This document shows positions 60 to 64,000 of a DNA stretch of 64,000 bases, one piece after another (positions within the stretch are counted from its first letter, which is position 1; every line of letters begins with the position of its first letter). The notes beneath the pieces were generated by a model. That model was not told the origin of the DNA and made no database searches. It saw only the letters and a list, made by a program, of their open reading frames with translations. Source of the stretch: Acidocella aquatica (GTDB taxonomy: Bacteria; Pseudomonadota; Alphaproteobacteria; Acetobacterales; Acetobacteraceae); NCBI RefSeq assembly GCF_030160635.1, contig NZ_BSOS01000090.1, positions 1 through 64,000 of the forward strand. The letters are read 5' to 3'. A program made the translations under genes and the position numbers.

Positions 60-207
60 TGCTAGGCCGCTCAGGATGAACGAACCTAAACCGATCACAC
101 GCTGGAGAATTCAGCGAATAGCTGAATCCTCCAGCCTTATTTTTGAACGAGTGATTCCATGCGTTTAGCTTGAACGCTCCGCGTCAATCGAAACGCATAT
201 TGCTCTA
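60..207 (-). repeat. variable-core palindromic intergenic element, copy R1
   Basis: Read on the minus strand, this begins TAGAGCAATATGCG, forms a stem of ATGCGTTT with AAACGCAT, and continues through an AATCACTC end. A second near-perfect 15-bp stem follows (GCTGGAGGATTCAGC against 101-115), then the start of another unit. The layout matches the copies near 5.5, 34, 49.5, 54.4 and 63.9 kb although the stem sequences differ. The first TAG of the element (205-207) is the stop codon of the outer-membrane protein gene beside it. Confidence 0.7.
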
Positions 208-3513: not shown

Positions 3514-5469
3514 ATGGAGCCATTTGCCGAAACTGCCAGCGCAGGACTAATGCTTCGCCAGCCCGCGAGGCTCGCGACTGATCCAGCCGATATCAGCCGC
3601 TCCTGGCAGCGTTGCCGGCAAGCGGGGCTGATGCCCGAACTCGCCCGTGTCGACGGCCCGCACATGGGCCAGACACAATTGCGCGCCGCCACAGACCGCC
3701 GCGCCACGCTCATCGCCCAGGCACGCCCGGTCATAGACTACATCTATAGCCAGATCCGCGATTCCGGCTGTGTCATGCTGCTTTCCGACGAGAACGGCTA
3801 TCTCCTGGAATCCGCCGGCGACACTGATTTCTGCACCCGCGCCGCGCAGGTTGCCCTGCAGCCCGGCGCCTGCTGGGCAGAGAACACGCGCGGCACCAAC
3901 GCCGTCGGCACGGCGCTGATCGAGGGCCGGCCGATCGTGGTGAACGGCACCGAACATTATCTGCGCCACAACAATTTCCTTGCCTGCGCCGCGGCGCCGC
4001 TGGTCGAGCCGGGCGGGCGGATGCTCGGCGTCATCGATATTTCCTGTGACGCGCGGCGCTACCATCCCCATACGTTCGGCCTCGTGCGCGCCGCCGCGCA
4101 GATGATCGAAAACCGTATTTTCGAACTCACCTTCGTCAACCAGATGAAGCTGCGCTTCCACCTGAGCAGCGCCTGCCTCGGCAGCGTCATGGAAGGCACC
4201 CTTGCCCTGAGCGAGGACGGCCGCATCATCGGCGCCAACCGCACCGGCTTTCACCTGCTGGGCCTGACCCCGGCCGATATCGGCGAGCGCGACATTGCCT
4301 CGGCGCTGGGTATCGGCCTGCGCGAACTGCTGGACCTGAACCGCCACGCCCAGGGCCGCCCCGTGGCACTGCACCGGCGCGGGAGCGAGAGCATGTTTAT
4401 CATGGTCGAGCATGTGCGTCCGCCACAATTCCTGCCGGGAAACCTGCCCGCGGTGGCGCCGAAAACCACCACGGAGGATGCCCTGGGCGCGCTCGATACC
4501 GGAGACGCGCGCGTGCATACCGCGATTGCGCAGGCACGCCGCGTGCTGGGCCGCAAGGTGCCCATTCTGCTGCAAGGCGAAACCGGCGCCGGAAAGGACG
4601 TCTTCGCCCGCGCCATCCACGCCTCCAGCGGGCGCGCGCAAAAGCCGTTTGTCGCGGTTAACTGCGCGGCGCTGCCGGAAAGCCTCATCGAATCCGAACT
4701 CTTCGGCCACGCCCCCGGCTCCTTCACCGGCGCGCGGCGCGAGGGTGCGCTCGGGCGCATCCGCGAGGCCCATGGGGGCACGCTGTTTCTCGACGAAATC
4801 GGCGACATGCCGCTGCACATGCAAACCCGTCTGCTGCGCGTGCTGGAGGATGGCTACGTGACCCCCATCGGCGGCAAGCCGGTGCCGGTCGATTTTCTGC
4901 TCATCAGCGCCACGCATTGCGACCTGAAGGCGCGCATCGGCACGCAGGAATTCCGCGCGGATTTATACTACCGCCTGAACGGGCTGACGATCGCCCTGCC
5001 CCCCGCGCGCGAACGCACCGATCTCCCGGAACTGATCGAGCGTATCCTGGCCCGCGAGGCCCTCGAGCGCGGCGATGGCACACAATTGCAACTTGCCCCC
5101 GAACTGGCCGGCGCATTTGCCCGCTACCCCTGGCCCGGCAATCTGCGCCAGCTCGCCGGCATGCTGCGGACCGCATGCCTGATGCTCGATACGGGAGACA
5201 CCGAGCTGCGCCTGGAACATCTGAGCGAGGAGGCACAGGCCGAACTCAACCGCAAACACACCGCTCCGCCGCCCACGGCCCGCCCCGTCACCCTGCGCGC
5301 ACGCGCCGACGCGCTGATCGGCAACGCCGTGGCGGAGACCGGCGGCAACGTCGCCGCCGCCGCGCGCAAGCTCGGCATCAGCCGCAATACCCTCTACCGC
5401 CGGCTTGCCGCCGGGGCGATCCCGCCGGAGGCCACCAAAACCCTGCAGCCACGAAAACTGAACAGCTAG
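3514..5469 (+). CDS. AcoR-type sigma-54-dependent transcriptional activator
   Basis: This 651-residue regulator has the three-part layout of the AcoR/AcxR group. An N-terminal GAF-like sensor spans about residues 60-210 (ENGYLLESAG and FLACAAAPL). The AAA+ engine has Walker A GETGAGKD near 355, the sigma-54 contact loop near 401 and Walker B GGTLFLDEIGD near 420. A C-terminal Fis helix-turn-helix follows (NVAAAARKLGISRNTLYRRL, about 610-632). The contact loop reads GSFTGA instead of the usual GAFTGA. It probably senses an alcohol, aldehyde or related small molecule and drives the divergent dehydrogenase operon. Its TAG stop is the first triplet of a repeat element. Confidence 0.92.
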   Translation: MEPFAETASAGLMLRQPARLATDPADISRSWQRCRQAGLMPELARVDGPHMGQTQLRAATDRRATLIAQARPVIDYIYSQIRDSGCVMLLSDENGYLLESAGDTDFCTRAAQVALQPGACWAENTRGTNAVGTALIEGRPIVVNGTEHYLRHNNFLACAAAPLVEPGGRMLGVIDISCDARRYHPHTFGLVRAAAQMIENRIFELTFVNQMKLRFHLSSACLGSVMEGTLALSEDGRIIGANRTGFHLLGLTPADIGERDIASALGIGLRELLDLNRHAQGRPVALHRRGSESMFIMVEHVRPPQFLPGNLPAVAPKTTTEDALGALDTGDARVHTAIAQARRVLGRKVPILLQGETGAGKDVFARAIHASSGRAQKPFVAVNCAALPESLIESELFGHAPGSFTGARREGALGRIREAHGGTLFLDEIGDMPLHMQTRLLRVLEDGYVTPIGGKPVPVDFLLISATHCDLKARIGTQEFRADLYYRLNGLTIALPPARERTDLPELIERILAREALERGDGTQLQLAPELAGAFARYPWPGNLRQLAGMLRTACLMLDTGDTELRLEHLSEEAQAELNRKHTAPPPTARPVTLRARADALIGNAVAETGGNVAAAARKLGISRNTLYRRLAAGAIPPEATKTLQPRKLNS

Positions 5470-5623
5470 AGTGCGATCGTTTGAGGTTCGCTCGGATGAG
5501 CGAGCCGAAAGCGTGAATCGCCCTCAGAAAAACAGGTTAGAGCATGATCGCACTTAAAGCGATCAAGCTCTAGAGTGCGATCGTTTGAGGTTCGCTCGGA
5601 TGAGCGAGCCGAAAGCGTGAATC
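5467..5623 (+). repeat. variable-core palindromic intergenic element, copy R2 (A-B-A array)
   Basis: Two identical 53-base A units (5467-5519 and 5571-5623) begin TAGAGTGCGATCG, contain an imperfect stem around GGTTCGCTC/GAGCGAGCC and end GTGAATC. The first copy continues with GCCCTC. Between them is hairpin B, GAGCATGATCGC and GCGATCAAGCTC around an ACTTAAA loop (5540-5570), one mismatch from perfect. The first TAG is the stop codon of the sigma-54 activator gene. The following 5624-5766 is AT-rich with no credible gene. Confidence 0.85.
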
Positions 5624-33983: not shown

Positions 33984-34090
33984 TTAGAACGCGATCGTTT
34001 GAGGTTCGCTCGCCTGAGCGAGCCGAAAGCGTGAATCGTCCTCAGAAAAATGGCCAGAGCCTGATCGCACTTAAAGCGATCAGGCTCTAA
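33984..34090 (+). repeat. variable-core palindromic intergenic element, copy R3
   Basis: Unit A (TTAGAACGCGATCGTTTGAG... to GTGAATCGTCCTC) is followed by hairpin B, GAGCCTGATCGC and GCGATCAGGCTC around ACTTAAA. That stem is perfect; compared with R2 both sides carry the change that restores pairing (C with G). It fills the gap between the convergent phosphatase and sulfotransferase genes. Confidence 0.85.
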
Positions 34091-49368: not shown

Positions 49369-49799
49369 GGCTGGCGGGGGTGATGATTTATAAAAAACCC
49401 GTCACATTTACGTTTGTCAGGGTAAAGTCCGGCGAGACGGCTTGCCGCCGGAAATGCATCCCCTAGATCAATATTGGTTTAGCTTGAATCACCCGATTCA
49501 AGCTAAACCAATGAAATTGATCGTAAAACATAAGGTTGAGCGTGATTGACGTGAGGCAATCACGCTCTAGAGTGCAATGACTTCAAATTTACCCGCTTTG
49601 CGGGCCAATTTGAAGTCTGAATCGCCCTCTATCCTAATAATCGAGAGGCGGATTCAGGCATGAGATGTCATCCGGCTCTGGAACTCAAACGCTTGCATAT
49701 ATTCAGTTATTCAGGACAATTCGTCATTATCTCATGACCGTTTCGCATCGTGCCAATTTTGGAGCCGGCCTTGAACCTCGCAAGAGGTGCCGTACCCCC
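49369..49799. other. 431-base non-coding interval
   Basis: The first 94 bases show nothing recognisable apart from a short AT-rich patch. Repeat copy R4 occupies 49463-49658. The remainder is the leader of the outer-membrane protein gene at 49800. An ATG at 49665 would extend that gene but would spoil its signal peptide. Confidence 0.7.
49463..49658 (+). repeat. variable-core palindromic intergenic element, copy R4
   Basis: It contains a perfect 18-bp stem (49473-49490 with 49495-49512), hairpin B with GAGCGTGATTG/CAATCACGCTC (49538-49567) and a second A unit TAGAGTGCAATGACTTC...GACTTCAAATT/AATTTGAAGTC...TCTGAATCGCCCTC (49568-49629). An inverted copy of that last end follows (AGAGGCGGATTCAG, to 49658). 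The flanks match the other copies, while all stem sequences differ from them. Confidence 0.85.
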
Positions 49800-53120: not shown

Positions 53121-54407
53121 ATGAATGTTCTCCCGCAAACCCGCATCAAGGCTTCGCGCTGCGCCGGGATGTTCCCGCTTGGGCTGGCGCTCGCCCTGTT
53201 ATGGGCATGCGCGGTGGTACTCCCCGCGCCGGCGCGGGCGCAAACCAGTGAAACCGGCGGCATTGGCGGCACCGGGATCAGCGCGGGGACCGGCGGCATC
53301 GGCGGCACCGGGATCAGCGCCGGAACGGGCGGCATTGGCGGCACCGGCATTGCGCGCTCCGGCATGCCGGTCACCGGGTATGGGCCGATCCAGGCCTTTG
53401 GCAGCGTGTTCGTGAACGGCCGTGAATATGCCATCGACGGCCGGACGCTGGTGATGATTGATGGCGCTCCGGCCACGGTATCGGCGTTGCGCGTGGGTGA
53501 TATCGCCAATGTAAGGGGCGTCATCACCACGGCGCGCGGCGGCTACGCCAGGGAAATCGCCATTGTGCACCCGATCATCGGCCAGGTGACGGATATCGCC
53601 CCGGATGGCGCCAGCGCCACCGTGCTCGGGCAGCATGTGGTCGCGCCACCCGGCCAGACGCCCTTTGCCGGGATCACCCCCGGCGCCCTGGTTGCGGTCT
53701 CCGCGCTGCCCAGGCCCTCGGGCGACTGGGTGGCGCAACGGATAACCCGGCTGCCGCCCGGCAATCATTTCCAGCTTGCGGCGGTCGTCACATCGCTGGC
53801 GCCTGGGCGGCTGGCGGTCGCCGGCACCAGTATTCTGGCGCAGCCCAGCCTCACGGCACGGCTCTCCGCCGGTGAGCGGGTTATCGTTAGCGGAAGCTTG
53901 AGCGCGCAGGGCCTGCGGGCCGATACCGCCCTGCCCGCCCCGGTTGCGCTGGGCCAGCCGGGAGGCGTGGTCGAGGTGCGCGGTTATTTCCAGACCAATG
54001 CAAAGGGGCAGCTGGTCACCGCCGATGGTCTGCTCGCCTCCGGCGCGCCGGCCGGGCTGCATCTGAACGGCCAGAATCTGGTCGAAATTCAGGGCGAGCT
54101 GACCGCCGCCGATTCGATCAGCATCGACCTGATCGATACTGAAATGCTCGATGCGGAGGATTGGACCGGCGCGCCGGCAAGCCGCGCGGGACCGGCGGTT
54201 GCCACACCACAGCGCGGCGAGGAACCCGCCGAAGACCTGCAAAAGCCGGAGACGGGTGTTAAGCCAGCGTCACAGAAACCAGATGCTTCCGATGTGAACA
54301 GGGCGCCGGAAACCGGCCCAGAGCACACCGTGCCAGAGGTTGAAACGCCCGACATTGAAGCGCCGGACGTTGAAACGCCTGAAATTGAGAGTCCGTCAAA
54401 GGATTAG
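53121..54407 (+). CDS. secreted DUF5666 protein with glycine-rich 12-residue repeats
   Basis: This 428-residue protein has a signal peptide (hydrophobic about 17-35, PARA before the cleavage site). Three copies of GGIGGTGISAGT follow (about 45-80). Several DUF5666-type beta domains come next (QAFGSVFVNGREYAIDGRTL, and later repeats of the same kind). The C-terminal tail is acidic and Pro-rich, with a pentapeptide pattern such as ETPDIEAPDVETPEIESP. It is exported, perhaps to the cell surface. It follows the DUF6502 gene by 1 base, so the two form one operon. Its TAG stop is the beginning of repeat R5. Function unknown. Confidence 0.75.
   Translation: MNVLPQTRIKASRCAGMFPLGLALALLWACAVVLPAPARAQTSETGGIGGTGISAGTGGIGGTGISAGTGGIGGTGIARSGMPVTGYGPIQAFGSVFVNGREYAIDGRTLVMIDGAPATVSALRVGDIANVRGVITTARGGYAREIAIVHPIIGQVTDIAPDGASATVLGQHVVAPPGQTPFAGITPGALVAVSALPRPSGDWVAQRITRLPPGNHFQLAAVVTSLAPGRLAVAGTSILAQPSLTARLSAGERVIVSGSLSAQGLRADTALPAPVALGQPGGVVEVRGYFQTNAKGQLVTADGLLASGAPAGLHLNGQNLVEIQGELTAADSISIDLIDTEMLDAEDWTGAPASRAGPAVATPQRGEEPAEDLQKPETGVKPASQKPDASDVNRAPETGPEHTVPEVETPDIEAPDVETPEIESPSKD
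53253..53352 (+). repeat. 36-bp coding tandem repeats (GGIGGTGISAGT)
   Basis: Three consecutive 36-base units, two full and one partial, encode the glycine-rich 12-residue repeat just after the signal peptide. They are almost identical at the DNA level, so copy number may vary between strains. Confidence 0.85.
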
Positions 54408-54546
54408 CGCGATCGTTTGAGGTTCGCTCAACCGAGCGAACCTCAAACGTGAATCACCCTCATAAAAATGGCCAGAGCCCGATCGCATTTAAAGCGATCA
54501 GGCTCTGGGATAACCATTTAGGCTTGCTCGGGCGAGCGAGCCTAAA
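54404..54546 (+). repeat. variable-core palindromic intergenic element, copy R5
   Basis: It starts TTAGCGCGATCG, with the TAG being the stop codon of the DUF5666 gene. Unit A is a perfect 16-bp stem here (CGTTTGAGGTTCGCTC and GAGCGAACCTCAAACG, loop AACC), whereas R2 and R3 have an imperfect version. It ends GTGAATCACCCTC. Hairpin B, GAGCCCGATCGC/GCGATCAGGCTC (54475-54506), follows, then a third stem, TTTAGGCTTGCTCG/CGAGCGAGCCTAAA. Confidence 0.87.
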
Positions 54547-57129: not shown

Positions 57130-57228
57130 GGTTCTATTCTCTACCTCGGTTATGGCACCCTTGGTGGGCGCGTCACTGATATTGTATGTCGTTGCTCGTG
57201 AAAAGTACTCTAGCACACAATCTTTAGT

Positions 57229-58386
57229 CTAGGGTTTGAGGCGACACAGGCGGAAAATGGCTTCCTCTATGTCCGGTAGCGCGGCGCAATAGCTCATCCT
57301 GAAGAAATTCTTGCCCCTTTGTGCGTCGAAATCGTAGCCGGGTGTAACGGCAATATCGGCTTCGTCAAGCAGCCGGGCACAGAAGGCGCCGCTGTCGGCG
57401 GCGCGGCTTGAGCTGTCGGCATAGAGGTAAAAGGCGCCGTCTGGCGGCGAAATTTTCGTAAAACCAGCGGTTTCAAGGCCGGTGAGCAGCATCTGGCGCG
57501 CGGTGGCGTAGCGGGCGCGGTTGGCTTCCAGCTCCTGCGTGCAGGCGAAGGCGGCCTGGGCGGCGACCTGTGAGATATAGGAGGGTGAGACGAAAAAATT
57601 CGCCGCCAGCCGCTCCACCGGGCGCACCAGCTCCTCAGGGCACACCATCCAGCCGACGCGCCAGCCGGTCATGGAGAAATACTTGGAAAAGGAGTTGATG
57701 ACGATCGCGCTTTCAGAAAACTGGGCGGCAGAGGCGATGGGTTTGCCGTAGGTCAGGCCGTGGTAGATCTCATCCGAGATCAAACGGATACCGTTGGCGT
57801 GGCAGTAGCGCGCCAGGGCTTTAAGCTCATCAGGGGAGAGCATGGAGCCGGTGGGGTTGGCCGGGCTGGCCACGATCAGCCCGTCGGGCTTGCGCTCCAA
57901 CGCCTCCAGCATGGCAACCGTGGGCTGAAAGCCGGTTTCGATGCCGCAGGGGAGGATCAGCGGTTTCAGGCCCAGCGCGGTGGCGATATTAACATATGGC
58001 GGGTAATAGGGGGCGGCCAGGGCGATGGTATCGCCGGGGTCGAACGCGGCCAGAAAGGCCAGCGGAAACGCCCCCGAAGCGCCGAATGTCACCGCGATGC
58101 GGGCCGGGGCGATGGTTGTACCGTACCAGTCCTGAATATGCGCGGCGATGCGCTCACGCAGGGGCAACATGCCCAGAGCCTCGGTGTAGCCCAATGTGGC
58201 GCCGGTGCGCAGCGCGGCCTCGGCCGCCAGACGCGCGCCCAGCGGCAGGCCGGTGCCGGGCTGGCCAACTTCCAGGCGCAAAATCCTTGCATCGCCCGGT
58301 TGGCGGCGTTGCGCGCGGGCGTTGGCCTCGGCGATGACATCCATCACCCGGAAGGGCGGAACCGCCCGGCCTATGCCGATTTTCAT
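57229..58386 (-). CDS. class I/II pyridoxal-phosphate aminotransferase
   Basis: This 385-residue enzyme has the fold-I landmarks SPANPTGSMLSPDEL, LISDEIYHGLTYG and the PLP Lys in NSFSKYFSMTGWRVGWM. It belongs to the aspartate/aromatic aminotransferase group; the amino donor cannot be told from sequence alone. It lies co-directional between the GGT-like gene and etfB, with 45 and 99 bases on either side, so it probably has its own transcript. Confidence 0.87.
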   Translation of the reverse strand: MKIGIGRAVPPFRVMDVIAEANARAQRRQPGDARILRLEVGQPGTGLPLGARLAAEAALRTGATLGYTEALGMLPLRERIAAHIQDWYGTTIAPARIAVTFGASGAFPLAFLAAFDPGDTIALAAPYYPPYVNIATALGLKPLILPCGIETGFQPTVAMLEALERKPDGLIVASPANPTGSMLSPDELKALARYCHANGIRLISDEIYHGLTYGKPIASAAQFSESAIVINSFSKYFSMTGWRVGWMVCPEELVRPVERLAANFFVSPSYISQVAAQAAFACTQELEANRARYATARQMLLTGLETAGFTKISPPDGAFYLYADSSSRAADSGAFCARLLDEADIAVTPGYDFDAQRGKNFFRMSYCAALPDIEEAIFRLCRLKP

Positions 58387-60998: not shown

Positions 60999-61066
60999 AT
61001 AGAGCATTTTGGTTTTGGCGAGCAATTTTACCCGATCAGATGATTCCATCTGATCAAATGTTGCTC
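60999..61066 (+). repeat. nested hairpin related to the palindromic element family, copy R7
   Basis: TAGAGCATTTTGG opens a palindrome with AGCA...TGCTCT ends and a perfect inner stem, GATCAGATG/CATCTGATC (61034-61055). The AGAGC/GCTCT flanks are those of hairpin B in R2, R3 and R5. It lies between the divergent apaG and TPR genes. Confidence 0.5.
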
Positions 61067-63720: not shown

Positions 63721-63795
63721 TGGGACGTCGCCAAGTGGTAAGGCAGCGGATTTTGATTCCGCCATTCGGAGGTTCGAATCCTCCCGTCCCAGCCA
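63721..63795 (+). tRNA. tRNA-Gln (anticodon UUG)
   Basis: The acceptor stem TGGGACG pairs with CGTCCCA, followed by discriminator G and an encoded CCA (63793-63795). The anticodon stem GCGGA/TCCGC encloses TTTTGAT with anticodon TTG. The T arm has GGTTCGAATCC. The length is 75 bases with an intact cloverleaf. Confidence 0.95.
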
Positions 63796-63904
63796 GCTAA
63801 ACTTTTCCGCGAAATATCAGCCGGTTTTGGGCAGTGACCCGAAAGCAGGCGGCGCGGCCATAACTGATGTTAAGCAGTCATGCCGGGGTCATCGCACTCA
63901 GTCC

Positions 63905-63968
63905 AGAGGGCGATTCAGACCCCGGCTTTTGCCGCTGAGCGGGGCAAGCCGGGGTCATCGCACTCTCT
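63905..63968 (-). repeat. variable-core palindromic intergenic element, copy R6
   Basis: Read on the minus strand this gives TAGAGAGTGCGATGACCCCG... to GTCTGAATCGCCCTC. The core is a stem of GACCCCGGCTT and AAGCCGGGGTC (63918-63956). A second partial unit (GAGTGCGATGACCCCGGCA) follows at 63881-63900. The ends match R4 (AGAGTGC-R-ATGA ... TCTGAATCGCCCTC) but the stem is entirely different. Confidence 0.85.
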
Positions 63969-64000
63969 AAAAATGAATGAACTAAGAATGAGTGAAATTC

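Follow-up and report, generated by a model that had tools for sequence, protein, structure and literature searches.

The window (the whole 64,000-nt stretch of the Acidocella aquatica genome that was analysed) carries six dispersed palindromic repeats, R1 to R6, and a relative of them, all present at the coordinates first reported. R2, R3 and R5 make up one 107-nt subfamily (the R2 type), and the second half of R4 together with R6 belongs to a sister (GAC) type. In the R2-type unit, about 107 nt long, a linker close to AGAAAAAnnGC joins hairpin A to hairpin B. Hairpin A has an inner helix and an outer helix, the latter with a single mismatch, and a TGA bulges out on its 3' side. The short ends by which the first-pass annotation had delimited the repeats are real, but the unit is larger, comprising hairpin A or its sister-type counterpart H1, the linker and a second hairpin, usually bounded by TA.

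R2 starts at the end of a gene (3514-5469), the left TA being the first two bases of its TAG stop. Hairpin A (5467..5525, plus strand) runs from the fixed end GAGTGCGAT through the stem and the TGA bulge to the fixed end ATCGCCCTC, and is followed by the linker AGAAAAACAGGT and hairpin B (5526..5572, plus strand), which has one A/A mismatch and the end ..GCTC|TA. At this TA(G) end a second, truncated R2-type copy begins (5571..5623, plus strand). R3 (33985..34090, plus strand) is of the R2 type with a perfect hairpin B, which had been ascribed to matching changes on both arms. This was a misreading: the R3 form GAGCCTGATCGC is the commonest among the copies listed, and the A/A mismatch of R2 looks like decay of it. 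R5 (54405..54508, plus strand) is an R2-type copy at the TAG stop of the gene 53121-54407, for which the related genome G015 has its stop (TGA) at the same codon. The arms of R5 hairpin A are perfectly complementary, with CCTCAAACG in place of CCGAAAGCG.

R4, previously taken as a single copy, is two elements end to end. Unit 1 (49464..49571, plus strand) has a two-hairpin layout like the R2 type and a different sequence (GATCAAT../..TGAAATTGATC), and unit 2 (49568..49680, plus strand), of the sister type, begins where unit 1 closes with TA(G), with H1 at 49570-49629, a linker at 49630-49643 and an inverted H2 with a shortened core at 49644-49680. R4 is absent from the corresponding site in the relatives G010, G022, G015 and G002. 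R6 (63904..63970, minus strand) is a sister-type H1 with core CCCCGGCTT and lies downstream of a tRNA gene (63721-63792). The relative at 60999..61066 (plus strand), a GAG outer stem plus hairpin, is akin to the others in layout and lacks the right-end string; it is absent at the same site of G045, G002, G010 and G022. R1 (60..207, minus strand) is a degenerate two-hairpin element with arms at 101-115/121-135 and 159-173/184-198, and on the right it ends in CTC|TA, which coincides with the TAG stop of the minus-strand ORF 205-1143. It was listed as a copy sharing the common ends; it carries neither of the end strings, and its two hairpins (101-135, 159-198) have a similar layout. At 57190..57260 (plus strand) is an empty site, where the window reads GTCTAGGG and G010, G002 and G022 hold another, TA-flanked palindromic sequence.

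All eight window stretches that were folded are more stable than shuffled sequences (z −3.9 to −9.1, with 0 of 200 shuffles as good in each), which upholds the self-complementarity first described. At the Rfam gathering score the window gives a tRNA only, and four stretches from elsewhere (L212, L210, L228 and L062) give no match.

Distribution of the subfamilies

Searching the 4.03 Mb A. aquatica genome with a pattern of the shared ends, GAGNGCRATN{10,40}GAATCRCNCTC, gives 45 matches, and the reversed control gives none, which confirms shared ends on dispersed copies. The cores, which had been described as freely changing, are of the GGTTCGCTC type in 43 of the 45 matches, R2 among them, and differ in the remaining two, which are the second half of R4 and R6. 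R3 and R5 fall outside the strict pattern by small changes, though they are of the R2 type. A pattern of the core returns 59 rows, and since two copies are found on both strands, these correspond to 57 distinct R2-type copies.

The sister-type pattern, GAGNGCRATGACN{12,42}GTCTGAATC, has 115 matches in 21 of 38 genus genomes (reversed control 0), nearly all of 53-54 nt, with very different and mostly self-complementary cores. About 12 nt beyond the matched hairpin, H1, there is usually an inverted hairpin H2, with ends like those of H1 and a core of its own. A stricter pattern, run over GTDB species genomes, yielded 106 stretches from organisms whose depositors named them Acidocella, Rhodospirillales or Proteobacteria bacterium (all MAGs), Rhodovastum, Magnetospirillum, Paramagnetospirillum, Phaeospirillum and Telmatospirillum. 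These stretches contain 109 sister elements. The right end is recognisable in 71, here called complete, and the other 38 are excluded from counts that involve both ends. Most complete elements (59/71) are 133-135 nt long and consist of two opposed hairpins and a linker, with an outer end of about 13 nt (TAGAGCSSGATGM) present at both ends. Counts of ends and stop codons use all 106 stretches, and those of covariation, GANTC number and G.T or A.C pairs the first 80. Across these data sets, core variety lies mainly between subfamilies and species, and less between copies within the A. aquatica genome. Three plasmid queries gave no match, and viral contigs gave no sister-type stretch.

Complete sister elements contain one to five GANTC sites, mostly three or four (54 elements), compared with 0.234 per 134 nt of flank, two of the sites in each element being imposed by the search pattern. 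A GANTC starting at 107-113, near the tip of H2, occurs in 55 of the 71 and is not imposed by the search. Four contigs of G022 (C20, C23, C29 and C65) carry tandem arrays of hairpin A, repeated about every 63-69 bp in a way that suggests insertion of copies at one another's ends. Two further repeats of 77-82 bp (L068:1394-1470 and L072:7191-7272) have many matches in relatives.

TA flanks, empty sites and stop codons

Among the 71 complete sister elements, TA is found on the left in 64, on the right in 61 and on both sides in 55, leaving 16 that lack it on one or both sides. The target has the form YTAR in 51 of the 55 elements flanked on both sides. The first 80 stretches alone give TA on both sides in 43/54 elements and YTAR in 41/43, and the left foot of the element is TTA or CTA in 49 of 54 and GTA in one. 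For the R2 type, TA stands on the left in 30 of the 36 copies with flanks examined, and on both sides in 9 of the 17 with a recognised right end, a weaker result than for the sister type.

Empty sites in relatives carry a single TA, as seen at two sites, D and F. Site D is empty in G022 (CCGTTAAGGCTGG) and filled in G010 (CCGGTA[element]TAAGGCTGG); A. aquatica, G010 and G002 hold elements of two types here, all starting at the same stop codon. Site F is empty in G015 (GTTCTAGC) and reads GTTCTA[elements]TAGC in A. aquatica. The window's own empty site at 57.2 kb also has a single TA and is filled in G010, by an element of a different palindrome family. A clean TA duplication was not seen at 60999 in comparison with relatives. 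For R4 and R5 the flanks are too diverged for the alignments with relatives to give an exact boundary, and none was obtained for sites A, B and C either, in alignments that left out the stretches for sites E and H (L140-L146) and some of those for C (L131-L133). In a separate case, the linker of one element is interrupted at a CTAG by a nested transposon with a DDE_Tnp_1/DUF772 transposase (L220:2289-3877), flanked by TA on either side.

The TA is very often part of a stop codon. In-frame placement was assessed with the longest upstream ORF of at least 100 codons, each frame having a one-in-three chance expectation. The upstream ORF stops in frame at the left TA(G) in 36 of 46 sister elements (p 5e-10) and 19 of 21 R2-type copies (p 8e-8), and the right end of the sister type is an in-frame stop in 26 of 33 (p 1e-7), values to be read with the proviso that element copies are not strictly independent events, though each has its own flank. 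The 26 stretches outside the initial set repeat the result (left 7/8, right 5/6). Of the 55 sister elements with TA on both sides, 38 abut a stop on one side or both, the left end doing so in 20 and the right end in 24, which is about equal. In the R2 type the hairpin A end abuts a stop in 20 of 30 copies (ORF of at least 100 codons in frame), against 4 of 12 for the other end, a hint of directionality. Some of the in-frame stops outside the window could belong to truncated genes. As background, 464 kb of sequence contain 1125 YTAR sites, of which 8.9% are stops; among non-genic sites the share is 19%, by simple ORF calling and with element copies included. The excess of stops above this background therefore reflects more than the availability of TA, whether by preference or by selection. 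One R2-type copy (L033:1490-1610) lies within the loop of what looks like a rho-independent terminator (aaaaagggggcttt[TAGAG..CTCTA]AGCCCCCTTTTTTT).

Covariation of the stems

That structure is kept without sequence is borne out in the wider family by covariation statistics, the test of compensatory substitutions that had been proposed. In 32 distinct H1 sequences of 60 nt, standard pairs fill 91.9% of pair cells. Shuffles reach 83.8%, none of 500 being as high, and sliding the pairing gives no more than 44.7%. All 12 variable pairs of the inner stem have changed on both sides, and the covariation score is 0.289 against 0.125. The invariance of the ends in this set is no proof of constraint, because the search pattern fixed them. 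Over the first ten pairs, the Watson-Crick fraction is 0.824 in 59 unique H1 cores (0.533 with arms reassorted) and 0.895 in 41 unique H2 cores (0.576 with arms reassorted). Each genome has a dominant core; nevertheless, at least two Watson-Crick pair types are found within one assembly in 28 of 132 combinations of assembly and position for H1 and 10 of 108 for H2. H1 and H2 stems of the same element differ beyond their shared ends, and each is palindromic. At the mismatch in the outer helix of hairpin A (the fourth base, GAGY), pairing is absent in 44 of the 45 matches to the ends pattern, in which both bases were free. G.T and A.C pairs stand at 36:16 in H1 and 8:11 in H2, a mixed picture that does not point consistently to strand-specific RNA selection.

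Two sets of sequences bear on how the stems change. In the R2 type, the right arm is CCGAAAGCG or a near form in 54 of 57 copies and the complement of the left arm (CCTCAAA..) in the other three, and the complementary tract ends at a different place in each of these: before the TGA bulge in R5, at CTCAAA in L068:14777, and at the very end in L055:262, where it passes through the bulge, which is missing. L055:262 is best read as derived, because the TGA bulge is common to the sister type. These copies fit arm-to-arm copying through template switching in at least one case; template switching is reported for RNA hairpins in PMC8794818. At 57.2 kb, G002 (L126, G002:C55) and G022 (L127, G022:C12) share an orthologous TA-flanked palindrome that is inverted between them, AGCACCCTG..CAGGGTGCT in one and AGTGCTCTG..CAGAGCACT in the other. 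It shows three stem differences, all mirrored on the other arm, which fits template switching and may also reflect stepwise compensation. The suggestion of a copying process that rewrites stems thus has direct yet limited support, from the 3/57 exact-complement copies and the mirrored differences at 57.2 kb.

Candidate transposases and the nature of the repeats

DDE_3 (IS630) transposases score above the cut-off in 26 of 38 genus genomes, A. aquatica having one match, to half of the model. Among 30 IS630 loci, seven have two TA-flanked ends about 1050 bp apart, and 13 of these 14 ends begin with TAGAG. Some IS630 copies of the genus therefore start with TA|GAG like the repeats; one also has GATGACTTTA, and one IS630 end reads TAGAGTCTGATGACTTTAAG. 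Other ends occur as well (CCTC.. in L157 and L177, TAGTG.. in L162). The IS630 copy of G023 (L148) is cut off on the left and, with one end on the contig, ends in TAGAGTCTGATGACTTTAAGTTGC; three of its four IS630 relatives end in TAGAGC. Of 1038 distinct 26-mers that start with TAGAG, 348 are family-like, and of the 30 nearest to the G023 end 29 are family-like, the other being an IS630 end. Compared with the ends of the two-ended copies, R4 unit 1 matches L149_R at 20 of 26 ungapped positions (p 0.007, one of ten tests), and R2 hairpin A and the GAC H1 and H2 have no significant match to the seven end pairs (p 0.6, 0.7 and 0.2). A search for pairs of terminal inverted repeats at the loci examined found no autonomous copy with two GATGA ends, and in three Magnetospirillum-group genomes the exact 13-base pattern gave no facing ends 0.8-4 kb apart. 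Three candidates for an autonomous partner were rejected: L220, where the DDE_Tnp_1/DUF772 transposase nested in a linker is one that we take to be IS1182-like, and L244 and L286, each of which is read as two neighbouring elements.

All seven two-ended IS630 copies (L149-L156 except L152) carry at least two GANTC sites no more than 62 nt from the 5' end of the transposase, whereas the opposite end has none except for TAGAGTC itself. Judged from sequence, CcrM control of transposition is a possible role of these sites.

In our assessment the repeats are quite probably non-autonomous miniature transposable elements, that is, CIR-like MITEs of the IS630 type built of two opposed hairpins and a linker, and they are probably moved by a transposase of a known kind. 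This would be an IS630-clade enzyme recognising TA|GAG..GATGA and acting in trans on YTAR targets, which are mostly stop codons of flanking ORFs. As each element end starts with G, a TAA or TAG that receives an insertion still reads as a TAG stop afterwards, and the fresh YTAG sites created each time give rise to tandem copies. The arms would stay complementary mainly through template switching at replication, with weak selection on the hairpin in 3' UTRs perhaps helping to keep the stems; both of these steps are less certain, and selection on structure may also contribute to complementarity. The first-pass annotation overlooked the TA flanks, the placement at stop codons, the GANTC sites and the link to IS630. 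Several observations count against the IS630-type MITE reading: the missing autonomous copy with two GATGA ends, the single end of the G023 IS630, the other IS630 ends, the non-significant comparisons of R2 hairpin A and the GAC H1 and H2 with the seven end pairs, the 16/71 sister elements without both TAs, the 9/17 of the R2 type, the lack of a clean TA duplication at 60999, the 36:16 ratio of G.T to A.C in H1 (though not in H2), such as RNA selection on one strand would produce, and a stop excess beyond TA sites.

Some of these would be expected if the repeats were structured RNAs under selection (3' UTR stabilisers, attenuators or terminators), with stepwise compensatory mutation and with mobility secondary. 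Their position at stop codons places them in 3' UTRs, and the end bias of the R2 type, the strong covariation, the G.T excess of H1 and the copy inside a terminator-like stem all agree with such a role. The near-equal use of left and right sister ends at stops does not, nor do H2 without a G.T excess, the empty sites in relatives and the lack of an Rfam match, and we regard this explanation as distinctly unlikely. It is improbable that the repeats are separate MITE families that merely share IS630 ends, palindromic by way of terminal inverted repeats and with no rewriting of stems: H1 and H2 differ within an element and yet are each palindromic, and multiple Watson-Crick pair types occur within one assembly, although a single dominant core per genome and the differing inner sequence among IS630 ends would suit it. 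A further proposal is that only the shape of the inner stem is inherited, one arm being copied onto the other at replication or transposition, so that template switching makes the stem sequence drift en bloc, and that the enzyme reads the folded strand through the fixed end, the constant mismatch and the TGA bulge with its CcrM site, which would make movement depend on replication and on the state of methylation; this we consider unlikely.

Single-strand recombination sites of the attC kind would likewise have only ends, mismatch and bulge fixed, because the recombinase reads the folded strand, and the mismatch that is nearly always unpaired and the bulge kept while the stem sequence varies are in keeping with this. 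The copies are nevertheless mostly dispersed with TA flanks and not in cassette arrays, and searches for Y1 and IS630 enzymes found no recombinase link, which makes such sites a very improbable explanation. Inverted pairs of bulged hairpins are also typical of REP/REPIN elements moved by RAYT (a Y1 transposase), as in BIMEs; the studied repeats do form inverted hairpin pairs with a 3' bulge, and the A. aquatica genome does encode a RAYT. No RAYT had been noted in the window, correctly so, as the sole Y1_Tnp match of the genome lies on contig C88 (NF047646, 210 bits) and is tied to a different palindrome. The 38 genus genomes contain eight Y1_Tnp loci, in seven genomes, at E ≤ 0.05 (two or three of them under the Pfam cut-off on their own). 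In all eight, GTAGG-type palindromes lie in the 250 nt preceding the frame or the 400 nt following it, where the studied repeats are absent, for which reason RAYT was rejected as the mover. The repeat-rich genomes G008, G022, G005, G023, G012 and G002 have no Y1_Tnp match. REP hairpins bear a GTAG/GGAG tag at the foot, which is lacking here, where the foot is nearly always TTA or CTA. TA duplication is not expected of Y1 enzymes, in contrast to the TA at the element flanks. Movement by RAYT is accordingly scarcely probable.

The nearest known kind is CIR, the CcrM-associated intergenic repeats of Caulobacter (Chen and Shapiro 2003), which PMC2229807 describes as repeats of about 110 bp that have a linker between two arms, contain GANTC and end in TA. 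Measured against that description, the studied repeats share the two inverted-repeat arms with a linker, the GANTC sites, the TA termini, the intergenic position and alphaproteobacterial hosts. They differ in that these hosts are Acidocella-like and Magnetospirillum-group bacteria and in the sister-type length of mostly 133-135 nt, and TA duplication, stop-codon preference, covarying stems and the IS630 link go beyond what is described for CIR. The same source states that more information is needed on the mechanism of CIR mobility. It presents RUP and Correia/NEMIS as MITEs with terminal TA, the proposed mover of RUP being IS630-Spn1. The studied repeats resemble both in small size, terminal inverted repeats and TA, and RUP in the IS630 link, but have opposed hairpins, a bulge, a linker, stems kept only as shape, and GANTC. 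YPAL and ERIC are, according to PMC2229807, also palindromic intergenic MITEs. YPAL targets span or adjoin dyad symmetry, with 3-26 bp duplications and no terminal TA, which the studied repeats do have; ERIC shares the terminal TA and is not described there as having a linker between two arms. GTAG REPs with RAYT, of 20-40 bp, have palindrome termini that often supply TAG stops to flanking ORFs, and occur as inverted pairs in BIMEs (PMC3733652). The studied repeats are like them in giving TAG stops and in their inverted hairpin pairs, and unlike them in TA duplication, in hairpins of about 57-60 nt and in having no RAYT association that we could find.

With ends, mismatch, bulge and spacing constant and paired stems varying, the repeats form a natural series across two groups of Rhodospirillales-like bacteria, in which two questions can be put to the test: whether template switching or compensatory selection keeps the arms complementary, and why stop codons are where a TA-targeting element settles. 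On the IS630-type MITE reading, CIR-like alphaproteobacterial repeats would become linked to the IS630 group, and their GANTC sites would be a possible methylation switch. RAYT-like genes were recorded separately (L022:1339-1929, L020, L021 and L103-L107), at no more than two per genome, and the cores of the GTAGG-type palindromes beside them vary between genomes (GTAGGATGGGT.., GTAGGGTGCAATGCC.., GTAGGGCGGAAAAGCG..).
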